A stretch of DNA of 64,000 nucleotides. Source: Diphasiastrum complanatum (taxonomy: Eukaryota > Streptophyta > Lycopodiopsida > Lycopodiales > Lycopodiaceae). The position numbers and the translations under genes were made by a program. Location: NCBI GenBank assembly GCA_029204225.1, contig CM055095.1, forward strand, positions 28,214,845-28,278,844, in the 5' to 3' direction. Numbering within the stretch: position 1 is the first letter of the stretch; every line of letters begins with the position of its first letter. The notes under the pieces were generated by a model, which had not been told where the DNA came from, did no database searches, and worked only from the letters and a program-made list of their open reading frames with translations. Below are positions 6,601 through 15,600 of the stretch, piece by piece.

Positions 6601-9600
6601 TCCAGATTCGGCAGAAGGTCAAGTCTAGAAAAAAGGAAGATACAAAGCTGCCTATAACATAGTATTGACTATTGAGCAAGCAGACTACAAAGGTCTGGAT
6701 CAAGCATTGAACTAAAAGCTGTTTCAAAAATCAATCGACCACTGATAAGTAGAAGAATAGGCCTGTTTAGAGTCTCAGGTCCCAATTCGGGTTGATGAAA
6801 ACACTGTAGTTCTAGAAACAAATAACATCCAATTACCAAGTAAATGATTTTGATAAATGCCAAACAATAAATGATGAGTTCAACTGCCCAAACTCAGAAT
6901 TATATGGTGAAAATCACAATTGAAAAGGAAAACCTCAACTGGAAGTAAGGTCCCAAAACGCAGTATCTGGATAATTTTAAGATAAGATTGAACATCTGAA
7001 TCTCCTACAGCAAATTTTAGCAAACAACAGGTGAAGAAAAATAGCTCAAAATTCCAATAACAAGAGGGAAACACGCTGCATATATCATAATAGAAGAGTA
7101 TGATACACTGTAATATATTGTAGAAGGCAAAATGATGACTCTCACCTGCCATGCTAATCTGCCAAAAGATAATGTGATTACTTTGGTATCGAACAGCCAC
7201 CAGAATGCAATCAAAACTTGACCAAATGAAGGATAATGTACCTTTCTATGTATGAAACAACCAAAACAAACCAGACACCTGCAATAGCAACGCCGAATGT
7301 GTGAAAAGGGTATTGTGCATGAACAAATAATTTTCCTCTTTTCAGAATCAGAAGAATCAGCTTATTAGGTGGTTCAGAATCGGCCTCAGCTAGAAAGAAT
7401 CAAAGAATTAGATGTGGTTTTAAAACTATGATTTTAATCATTAGTTACAAGAAAATCGATTGTAGAATCAAAATAGATCAGACACTCCAAAGTTTACAGT
7501 CACTCTCTAATCTACAGTCAATCTGTCATTTAGAATGACATAACAGTGTGATTATGAATGATATAGCCACAAATTTTTTATGAGTCAGCCTAAACCCTAT
7601 ATGAAATTCGAATAAGATGAATCGTCGGAATCGTGGTTCAAATCTCAATGAATCAGAGAGTTGGAAACTAAGCATAGACGAGCAATATTGTAACAACACT
7701 TGAACCAAATAGGTCCATAATTAGTCCAACTGTGTGCAAGAAGTATTGCCACAGGACAATAACAAAAAACTGAATAAACATCAGTGATACCTCCAAAATT
7801 TCATAGTTGCACAGAATCGCGTTTCTGGGAGGAGACGTTTCGGAAACCGCGTTTCTGAGAAACGCGTTTCTCCTCCCAGAATCGCAAAAAAAAAAAAAAA
7901 AAAAATTTTTTTTTTTTTGGAAAAATAGTTTATGGCTGAAATTTTTTTAGGGGATCAATGGTCAAACGAGCGTTTTGCCTCTCAAAAGTGCAGTAGCTGG
8001 GGCACAAACAGATCTTATTTTCAATAGCTACTTGGTTGTTATTTGCTCTGGTTTTCAATACATGCTCAGGGGGTTCGGGGGGCGGTAGCCCCCCGAGAAA
8101 CAGGGGGTCCGAGGGGCGGTAGCCCCCCGGTGGGGGGTTTTGGGGGGCAACGCTCTTCAACAGTAAGACCTCTTCATGACTTGGCCTTCCACTCCCTGAG
8201 TGAAAACACACTTACTGGGACTATCTGTGATCGTAACAGACATGCTAGAGGTTAGTTTTGAATTTTATCCTTCACAGAACCCAACATGGATTAATGCACC
8301 TGAACTGGACCATCCTGCACCCGAAATAGTCGGCAAATTACACAGTAATTATGCTCTTAATTAGAGCTTTCATCTGATACCCATATTGCCCAAAAAAAAA
8401 ACCCAATTTTTTTTTTTTAAAAAAACGTTTCTGGAATTTTTTCAAAAATTTCCGAAACGCGTTTCTGAACGCAATTCTGAAACGCGTTTCAGAAACGCAG
8501 TGCAACTATGCAGTCCAAATATAGGCAATAGATTGATTTTGGATGAAAAACTGAATGTACTTTTTGGTAAAAACGGACAAGAATGAGGTTCAATCCACAA
8601 AACTGGAAGACTATAACAAGCAATGTAGAGAAGGTACAATGTGACAGAAGAATGCCAAAGCTTCCTTTGTGCTCATACAATTCATTTGCGACTTGATCTA
8701 TTCTTGGTCCGCATTCATTTGCCACCTGATTGCGGCTCTCTGGATCGCGCTGCCTCCCTCCCCTGGATGTAGCTCGAAGCTTGGAGATGCCTCGCTGCTG
8801 TCCACACTAGCCTGCTGCCATCTGGAAAACCAGTGCTCGCTGATGTAGCTCGCTGCCATTTGGAGAAGCCATCGCTGCCTTGTCTATGTGCTATGAAGCC
8901 CCGCTCTAAGCGTGGAGGGAGCTCACGCTCCACCCCCCTAGATCGTAGATATGAACCTGATGCAGCTTCTCTTGTTGCGCCTACCACAGATCACGAGTCT
9001 AAACCCGTCATGCCCATGACTGGTCTCGGGTAGCATGTCCACGCTAGGGACCGGTAGACCGACAACCAGTAAGTTAATTGTGACTATAAGGGATTTGAGG
9101 CCCTTATGTGCACATGGTCATAATTAATGGTTGTATGTAGGAATCCATAATCAAGACTATTCATTTGTTTGAGAATACTTTGTGTTAATTAATAGTCTTG
9201 ATTCTGGATTCCTACATGGTATCAGGGCCATTTTTCAAAATTGATTGCTTGCTGGAGGGCACCCGATAGGCAGCCACATTTCTCCTCTTTTGGTTCATAA
9301 AAATCAGAATTTATCTGATTTTTGTGGAGAGAGAACTGTTCGGCTCCTTGTTTTTTGTGCAGGAAATTGCAGGGAAAAGCTTGGAACCTCCACTCATTTG
9401 GGAGCCAGCAGTAGAGCGCCCATGCTCAACTAGTTTTCATGTGATTGAAATCATATTACATGCTTCAAATTTCAGATTTTCTTCTTGGAGGAGGGCACCC
9501 ATCTACCTTGAAGACAAATGTGTTTTTGACACATTTTTAGTGGCTGAAATTTTTCTATAGCCTGGAAGAAGGTCCTACCATCTGCTCTATTAGCACATTG

Positions 9601-12600: not shown

Positions 12601-15600
12601 GAGTAAAATGTTGGGAGGACGCGATGAAAGAGGAGTATGACTCACTCATAAAGAACCAAACATGGGTTCTTGTTGATCTTCCACATGGAAAGAAAGCAAT
12701 TGGCTGTAAATGGGTTTATAAGATCAAGTACAAGTCCGATGGTACTGTTGAAAGGTACAAGGCAAGACTTGTTGCCAAAGGTTATGCGCAAAAGGAGGGC
12801 ATTGATTATGAGGAAACTTTTGCACCTACCGCACGAATAACTACCGTAAGGATAGTCACTGCTTTGGCTGCCCATCATGGTTGTGCTACACCAATTGAGA
12901 CGGGCCTGATATCAAAGTGGTGGTGAACCATTTGATACTACACTATATTGTCAAGCGGTTGGAAGTCTCATTTACTTATGCAACTCAAGACCGGACATAT
13001 CTTATAGTGTTTCCCTCATGAGTCAATTCATGCATGCTCCGTTGACATCACATTGGAAAGCATTGAAGAGGATCCTTCGATATCTTCAAGGAAGTAAAAC
13101 ACTTGGTCTGCTTTATCCTTCTAGTGATGATGCGTGTTTGGCTGGTTTTTGTGACTCGGATTGGGGTGGAGATCAAGACACTAGACGCTCTACTAGTGGT
13201 CATTGCTTTTTCATTGGAAATTCTGCAGTTTCTTGGTTAAGCAAGAAGCAGTCCACCGTTGCTACATCCTCAAGTGAAGCAGAATATAGAGCAACGTTTT
13301 CAGCCACTACGGAGTGTACATGGTTGAGACAATCAATTGTCGATATGAAGCATGGCCAGCCCTCAGCTACTCTCCTATTTACGGATAGTCAAAGTGCTAT
13401 TGCCATTGCACGAAATCTAGTATTTCATGCAAGAACAAAGCATATCGAGATCCACTATCACTTTGTTCGGGAGAAGCTTCATAATGGCGACATCACGCTT
13501 GAATATTGTCCCACGGAAGATAATATTGCAGATGTGTTCACTAAGGCATTGCCTAGAGTTCGATTTAAAGCTCTTTGTGAAGCCTTAAATTTAAAGCAAC
13601 ATGCTGATTTTCATACTTAGTGAATACATATCGTTTCTACATGTCATTTTCATTTAAGGAGGGTGTTAGAATAATAAATGTAAATGATGTAGAAGCCATA
13701 GGTTACTATGACCCAAAAGGTCGAGATCTGTGTAACCATGGTCATTTATATTTTAGGCCCAAGTCAGTATGAAACTAACTTGTAGGGACTCGTGGGTCCA
13801 CTAGGGGCATATACATGTGAATTAAGTACCGGGTACTTGAAGGAAGTATGGCAAAAAAGGCCCTTCTGAAAGACCTGTCCAATTTACGGAAATGCAGGCA
13901 TCCTCAGTTATCACAGATTTTCGTGCCACAATAAAAGAGTTATGTTTCCAAAAAGAAAATAAAAAAGGTGAAGAAAAAAGCACATGAGAACATCATTGGC
14001 GGGACTATACTACTGAGAGAATCGTTAGCCCCTGCTGCAGCAGGAATGGGTCGTCGTGGGTAAGATTGTATCTCAACCGAGCCCTCTTTCTACTGGCATC
14101 ATTTGGTCGACCGAAGCGGCATTTGGAATTGGCCTAGGTCCAACGAGGGCGGAGCGGAAAAGTGCCCGCAAGAGCACAAATTAGTGCCCGCAAAAGTGAT
14201 TACGTGGGGTTTAAGTTTTTTCCCGGTACTTAATTCACATGTATAGGCCCCTAGTGGACCCACGAGTCCCTACAAGTTAGTTTCATACTGACTTGGGCCT
14301 AAAATATAAATGACCATGGTTACACAGATCTCGACCTTTTGGGTCATAGTAACCTATGGCTTCTACATCATTTACATTTATTATTCTAACATTGTAGGCC
14401 TAAAACACTTGATGGCAAATTTGTATGGGTCTATCAGTGAGTCATTGGAGAACTGGATGACGTGGCCCAGATAGGCTGCAGAGGTGTCCAGTGAGGTGTC
14501 ACAGTGCACTACTAGTGGTGCATGGGCCTTGGAGGGTATAAGTATACCTATTGGGCTCTCGCTAGTGTATGCTTGATAGCATGACCGGTGGCAGGATGCT
14601 GCTGGTATGATACCTCATTCCTTGATTGAGATTGATCCATAGCTTGGGGGCTAGATCCATTCGATCTAGGTTTGGTTGGGTTGGTTTGTCCACCATCCGT
14701 TTCCCTTGTGTTGCTTGTAATTGGCATGCTTAGAATAGGATTCCTGGATGAGGACGAATCATACTTTGGATTCTAGTTATACTTGACCGTTTAAAAGAAG
14801 GATTACCCACATGATTAGGAGATCTGATAAGATATGTATTTGTATTTTGATAGCAATCTCCTCATAGAGGAAATTACCCTTGATGGAGATTGAGTTATTA
14901 TAAGCATTTGGCTACCGGTTATAGCCCGTTTATGCTTATGTACGGATTTGAGCCTAGGTCACCCACTGCGGTTGAGACTCGGTCGATCAAGTTTCAGAAA
15001 GTAGCGGATTTCCTACTTGATATGCAGGAAATGCTACGGATTGCACGTGAGAATGTCTAGTGTACCCAGGATGGGGACCGACATTATGCAAGTCTGAAAA
15101 GGATCACCGAGAGACTTCCAAGTGGGGGATTGGGTATTTTTTGAGAATCCCGAAGGATTCAAGTGTAATGCGTATCGGTTAGCATTACTAATCGTCCCCT
15201 AGATATAGAGGACCGAGTAAGATCGGATCCTTAGCTTACCAATTGGAACTCCCGGAAGGATCGCAAGTGAATCCCGTATTTCACGTAAGCCGACTCAAGA
15301 AGAGTCTACGTGAAGGAGTGCATCTTGGTTCTGGAAACCAAATGGACCTGTTGGATGAATCACCGGGTGCGTCTCGGTTTGGACCCGGAAGGATCTTGGA
15401 TACAAGAACTAAACGATTGAGAAATCGTATAGTTACCAAGCATCTGGTTCGATGGAAGAGTCACACAGACGATGATGATTCCTAGTAACAGGAAGGAAGC
15501 TTAAGGAGGAACTCCCCCAGTTTTAAGTTCTGAGGACAGAATTTGAATAAGGGGGGAAGAATGTCATGCCCATGACTGGTCTTGGGTAGCGTGTCCACGC

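Follow-up and report, generated by a model that had tools for sequence, protein, structure and literature searches.

A Ty1/copia element of Diphasiastrum complanatum with fold-back ends derived from opposite tips of one long terminal repeat

The element and its target site

The window analyzed here is a stretch of 64,000 nucleotides from Diphasiastrum complanatum (C4:28214845-28278844; unless a contig is named, positions are those of the window). It contains, at 9136-14391, a Ty1/copia element that lacks the two identical long terminal repeats (LTRs) expected at insertion and carries a different fold-back at each end; the element is thus a derivative of its family and not a normal product of it. 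The coordinates, which had been proposed in a preliminary description of this DNA, are exact to the base. The element begins with TGTAGGAATCC and ends with TATTCTAACA, and is bordered on the forward strand by the target-site duplication (TSD) TTGTA at 9131-9135 and 14392-14396. It splits a host LTR (9007-9135 and 14392-14755), for which we retain the label "gypsy-like" of the preliminary description. A second copy of this LTR, uninterrupted at 15563-16050, lies about 0.8 kb away and is 94.2-94.6% identical to the interrupted one; the two may form a single short element or be separate solitary LTRs. Alignment of the two reveals a single, unduplicated TTGTA at 15687-15691 (forward strand), so that the empty site is present in the same window.

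Directly 3' of the 81-bp left end lies the primer-binding site (PBS) TGGTATCAGGGCC (9217-9229, forward strand), which we take to match initiator Met tRNA; the ordinary family member L012 on contig C14 reads TGGTATCAGAGCC at this position. The polypurine tract (PPT) AAGGAGGG (13656-13663, forward strand) directly precedes the 728-bp right end and is identical in L012. Between them, Pfam matches and reading frames define a degenerate gag-pol on the forward strand (9846-13620), with gag, BBD, integrase, reverse transcriptase (RT) and an RNase H region. One open reading frame matches gag_pre-integrs, rve and SH3_retrovirus and then RVT_2 (positions 1-75 of 244), with BBD before it and gag_2 just below the cut-off (26 versus 27 bits). 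Integrase is located upstream of RT, the domain order of Ty1/copia elements. The coding region is broken into several reading frames, and RT lacks about 480 bp at 12883/12884, where the domain is cut at profile position 75 of 244. The frame 13018-13620 has no Pfam match and presumably encodes RNase H. In domain order, PBS, PPT, 5-bp TSD and LTR tips, the element resembles ordinary Ty1/copia members of its own family such as L012, from which it differs in having fold-backs of opposite tips instead of LTRs, and in the RT deletion.

Genome searches were run on the same 1.745-Gb assembly, and only the best candidates of each DNA search were scored; the copy numbers of such ends given below are therefore lower bounds. 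The RT deletion was spanned only at the window locus and on contig C4541 among the best 40 of 957 candidates. A portion of C4541 (13,461 of its 33,461 bases were compared) is collinear with window 6593-20011 at 99.65% identity and contains the same element, with three substitutions of its own, one located in the first right arm and the others in the loop of the right end. C4541 is probably allele-like and is taken here as the other haplotype; a recent duplication is also possible. Palindromes are generally prone to error in sequencing and assembly, but the presence of the structure on C4541 with its own substitutions speaks against an assembly error, and the long loop of the right end is not palindromic, so that an artefact is very improbable. 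No match to the U5-PBS sequence (U5, the unique 5' region of the LTR) and no relative of the integrase-RT reading frame was found in IMG/VR, and Rfam and tRNA scans of the window returned nothing.

Two ends from one ordinary LTR

The left end (9136-9216) comprises 81 bp with 30-nt arms that differ at 2 positions, and the right end (13664-14391) comprises 728 bp with 170-nt arms that differ at one; both are bounded by TG..CA. The preliminary description had recognized these structures, the TTGTA duplication and the correct placement of the ends against the PBS and PPT, all of which hold. It erred in calling the two ends unrelated. A direct alignment of the left with the right end finds nothing beyond 14 columns; the relationship appears in the ordinary LTR of the family, 420-444 bp long in the copies measured, which starts with the right arm of the window element and ends with its left inner arm. 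The two ends are opposite tips of one ordinary LTR, the start of U3 (the unique 3' region) and the end of U5.

Mapped on the LTR of copy L016, the outer left arm (9136-9165) is LTR 443-414 in antisense, with 29/30 positions matching. It is followed by the two hinge bases TG (9166-9167, forward strand) and by the inner left arm (9168-9216), which is LTR 395-443 in sense (48/49). At the other end, LTR 1-167 in sense forms the inner right arm (13664-13830; 164/167) and LTR 167-1 in antisense the outer one (14225-14391; 165/167). They enclose a loop at 13831-14224, consisting of GGG, 388 bp and CCC, that comparison with the genome and C4541 identifies as non-LTR sequence. The middle of the LTR is absent on both sides of the element.

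Twenty-four distinct LTR copies in the examined stretches have U3 followed by U5 on one strand (L004 is possibly allelic to one of these). This count excludes L003/L017, where only U5 is present, L038 and L042, where only U3 is present, an additional U5 piece in L034, and a second U3 of L041, pointing away from the first and truncated where the stretch ends. Old inverted U3 pieces, 75-82% similar, occur near L012 (twins L004 and L005), L029 and L042; those at L012 and L029 lie outside the TSD. Full-length L012 is flanked by the TSD CATCT, its LTRs differing at 8 of 411 aligned sites, and a full-length ordinary copy on C3 (seen in L015 and L018) by TAAAC. The single LTRs L029 and L031 are flanked by AAAAT and CTTTC, respectively. 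An odd tandem arrangement of this copia family was observed at C22:36041709-36046596 (L032, L031), where an LTR, a PBS and, 4.4 kb on, an LTR flanked on both sides by CTTTC follow one another, CTTTC also standing before the first LTR.

A search with the complete left hairpin (best 40 of 598 candidates) gave full-length matches only at the window locus and on C4541 (2/40); the other 38 cover the U5 half only, from position 25-33 to 81. Among 40 scored matches of the right arm, four belong to the window locus and C4541 and 36 stop at LTR 167; those inspected are LTR starts. The 388-bp loop has five matches in the assembly, whole at the window locus and on C4541, and otherwise as 36 nt (97%) on C14 and 40 nt (90%) on C3 and C21. 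The preliminary description had envisaged a new type of retroelement with asymmetric hairpin termini, to be recognized by the recurrence of this pair of ends in several copies. The well-placed TSD, PBS and PPT would suit such a family, but among the scored matches the pair exists only at the window locus and its allele-like counterpart, and the other copies have ordinary LTRs and TSDs. The idea is refuted for this genome as far as it was searched, and we give it almost no credence. An independent 728-bp fold-back element, also considered there, was rejected, as was a miniature inverted-repeat transposable element: among the scored matches, no other copy combines the same arms and loop.

By the preliminary description's own terms, its reading would fall if other copies showed ordinary LTRs and one end here could be put down to a later insertion or to gene conversion. 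Such copies were found, but neither event is judged to explain the ends. An origin of this kind, or by recombination of two families, would account for two ends without sequence in common; however, both derive from one LTR family, the outer termini adjoin the TSD and the inner termini adjoin the PBS and PPT. No third family with an LTR accounting for one whole end was met. A recombinant of two families was rejected on the first of these grounds, and for the group as a whole only a slight chance remains.

Joints, loop and a second fold-back copy

The joint of the left end reads ..CTATTCATT|TGTTTGAG.., and the 10-nt word ATTCATTTGT that spans the hinge is found again near position 295 (280-296) of the sense LTR, in 7/7 LTRs tested. 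Random joints had such a word in 35 of 6000 cases on the sense strand and in 80 of 6000 on either strand. These values replace an earlier null (566/4000 on either strand, 286 on the sense strand only) that had counted trivial 2-nt extensions of the joint's own site. A TG variant that would explain the joint without the patch at LTR 295 occurs in one of 25 distinct U5 copies (L013). The 81 bp are identical in the window and C4541, so that both have the 2/30 arm mismatches.

Both right arms end at LTR 167, where a natural stem (AATTAAGTACC/GGTACTTAATT; LTR 157-167/183-193) has its inner edge. This stem, with 11 perfect base pairs and a 15-nt loop, is present in 7/7 LTRs tested; when one LTR was shuffled 400 times, an arm of at least 11 appeared in four cases. 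The 15-nt loop is kept, with point variants, in all 26 U3 copies having the first stem half, and no loop-deleted parental LTR was found among them. In the window it is replaced by GGG, the 388 bp and CCC, and the first right arm runs on into GGGTACTT, which corresponds to LTR 182-189. Beyond the LTR break, the sequence TACC|GGG is common to both right arms. The motif was matched in 26 other distinct U3 copies (though not in L019), and all 26 have T at a position where both right arms carry a private C. The shared GGG and the private C indicate that the two arms derive from one molecule. C4541 lacks the single arm mismatch of the window, and its right arms are thus identical at 170/170 positions.

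The 388-bp loop contains readings of 47 and 25 amino acids, neither with a Pfam family above the cut-off (best E 0.15), and the 47-residue reading has matches in the assembly only at the window locus and on C4541; a captured gene was rejected on these results. About 300 bp from one of the 40-nt matches to the loop, stretch L024 (C3:57122362 region) contains a reading frame at 1836-2060 that presumably represents a mitochondrial cox3 fragment.

An exact-pattern search of the assembly for pairs of 11-base U5 tips oriented toward one another at a distance of 31-61 bp revealed three places, namely the window locus, C4541 and C10:62929722-62929792, and none for the reversed control. As only loops of this size were covered and only the best candidates scored in the other searches, the number of such copies is a minimum. 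On C10, a 71-bp hairpin stands directly before the PBS, followed by internal DNA 96% identical to that of the window element over 1720 bp. Its arms consist of the last 17 bp of U5 (427-443), joined over AATC/GATT to a 34-nt piece of the integrase region that corresponds to window 11849-11882, between the Pfam matches of the integrase core and the SH3-like domain. This chimeric joint is present in both arms, which implies that one of them served as template for the other, as copy-back would predict; in the window copy, the comparable shared stretch is only the 3 nt GGG of the right arms. The left terminus lies at LTR 443 plus two bases, CA, which fit either by chance or as PBS-antisense. The U5 fold-back of C10 is independent of the window copy. 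Its loop has the same orientation as that of the left end of the window element (2/2), and no right end was found in the 10.3 kb downstream of the point where the copy breaks off.

Proposed origin of the ends

Minus strong-stop DNA, primed by tRNA, has its 5' end at the U5/PBS border, and plus strong-stop DNA at the PPT/U3 border. Read as minus strand, the left ends of the window and C10 copies run through PBS-antisense and U5-antisense with an overshoot, turn, and return through U5-sense as far as LTR 443. On the plus strand, the right end runs through the PPT and U3 into an overshoot and foreign DNA, turns, and returns through U3-antisense to stop at LTR 1. The outer termini of the window element are exactly LTR 443 and LTR 1. 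Because these stopping points coincide with the 5' ends of the strong-stop DNAs, we propose that both were self-primed, each being copied back as far as its own 5' end, and that integrase used the termini regenerated in this way. We assign this reading a probability of about 0.5.

The element would have arisen from a faulty complementary DNA (cDNA) of an ordinary copia member whose LTRs measured about 443 bp. Each strong-stop DNA, minus as well as plus, may have overrun and turned on short inverted homologies, and copying back to the 5' end would leave a hairpin with an LTR terminus at its 3' end. The hairpin 3' ends ..CCTACA-3' and ..TCTAACA-3' would be LTR termini in inverted position. With the 5' ends sealed to the PBS and PPT, integrase could have joined both hairpin 3' ends to the gypsy-like LTR with a 5-bp duplication, after which repair and replication would have unfolded the hairpins. 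The 388 bp would have been captured in the right hairpin. In its wider form, the proposal is that self-primed minus and plus strong-stop hairpins were accepted by integrase as element ends at least twice (on C4 and C10), trapping a piece of the element's own integrase region once and foreign sequence once, and that the resulting proviruses carry inverted copies of opposite LTR tips in place of LTRs; for this extension we consider the chances evenly balanced. We set aside the idea of a simple hairpin taking the role of plus strong-stop DNA at the second strand transfer, because the loop would lie the opposite way in both left ends.

Several observations weigh against copy-back of the strong-stop DNAs. 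It requires two errors in one cDNA. If the patch at LTR 295 is due to chance, the left hinge is left without clear microhomology, and the second half of the natural stem is altered in 4 of the 26 U3 copies (L029, L034, L035 and L038). The assembly offers no source for the 388-bp loop apart from the matches of 36-40 nt. The mismatches are unevenly spread for arms formed together (left 2/30; right 1/170 in the window and 0/170 on C4541). The C10 copy breaks off within gag-pol, at a point corresponding to window 10912, which leaves no TSD to compare. Finally, integration by way of hairpin ends is itself a step that we infer here.

A serious rival is an inversion in situ of an ordinary copy in minus orientation, with a break in each LTR and the interior rejoined in reverse. 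One LTR would have lost 246 bp (LTR 168-413) and the other 227 bp (168-394), the 388 bp would be filler at the right joint, and the two LTRs from a single insertion would supply the arms. An ordinary copy in minus orientation would have exactly the outer termini seen here, and the pieces do not overlap in either LTR (443-414 with 1-167, and 395-443 with 167-1), as an inversion requires. A single event would yield both odd ends and the TSD, and would account for arms that are nearly identical and have the private C in common. Plant breaks are known to acquire filler DNA and the integration of transferred DNA to be accompanied by inversions (PMC8395108, PMC7156093), and yeast breaks to receive short fold-back insertions (PMC11724301), according to the available portions of these reports. 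However, both LTRs would have to be broken or trimmed exactly at 167 and share GGG beyond it, at a place where all 26 ordinary U3 copies that have the first stem half retain the loop. The C10 copy, with its U5/integrase-region joint in both arms, would also be left unexplained. We consider an inversion possible, if rather doubtful. Aberrant template switching, the second suggestion of the preliminary description, remains preferable when specified as copy-back at both tips of the LTR, with the later inversion as its serious competitor.

Copy-back of strong-stop DNA has a counterpart in human immunodeficiency virus type 1 (HIV-1), the minus strong-stop DNA of which folds and self-primes; the parts of the report consulted describe the product as aberrant and as one to be avoided during strand transfer (PMC4668388). 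In the element described here, by contrast, the product would have integrated, and plus strong-stop DNA would be involved too. In the same virus, the 5' and 3' LTRs differ in 26 of 88 proviruses, for which the authors invoke errors of strand transfer; these asymmetric LTRs are deletions in one LTR, and the examined portion of the text does not describe a fold-back of LTR tips (PMC9278108). Templated fold-back insertions at double-strand breaks and the filler DNA found there, as far as the consulted parts of the papers go (PMC11724301, PMC8395108), share copy-back at short inverted homology and foreign filler with the present ends, but halting at the borders between LTR and internal DNA would not be expected there. 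A search of the titles and abstract openings of open-licence PubMed Central (PMC) articles yielded no description of such ends in a retrotransposon among the best matches. The "palindromic LTR" mentioned in the consulted part of PMC2253517 refers to the TG..CA motif only.

The identity of the two LTRs at insertion underlies both the dating of elements and LTR-finding software; LTRharvest begins from repeat pairs, according to the same part of that paper (PMC2253517). If copy-back ends can integrate, such copies would be missed or misdated. If the proposed origin is true, these copies would record where nascent strong-stop DNA turned, so that self-priming like that of HIV, as it occurs in living cells, could be read from their sequence. 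They would also show how simply an LTR retrotransposon could acquire long terminal inverted repeats and capture foreign DNA at its ends.

Outside the fold-back element, the window contains a second copia element on the reverse strand (38724-44131), with 397-bp LTRs that are 99.7% identical and a long gag-integrase open reading frame, which represents a young ordinary insertion. A frame at 37541-38659 on the forward strand has a DUF659 domain, as occurs in hAT-like transposase-derived proteins. At 1983-2798 on the reverse strand, a frame encoding an NSUN2 pre-PUA domain (Pfam PF25376) probably belongs to a host RNA methyltransferase gene. Perfect CT/GA dinucleotide arrays of up to 56 copies are located at 52298-52409, 28503-28578, 17231-17294 and other positions.

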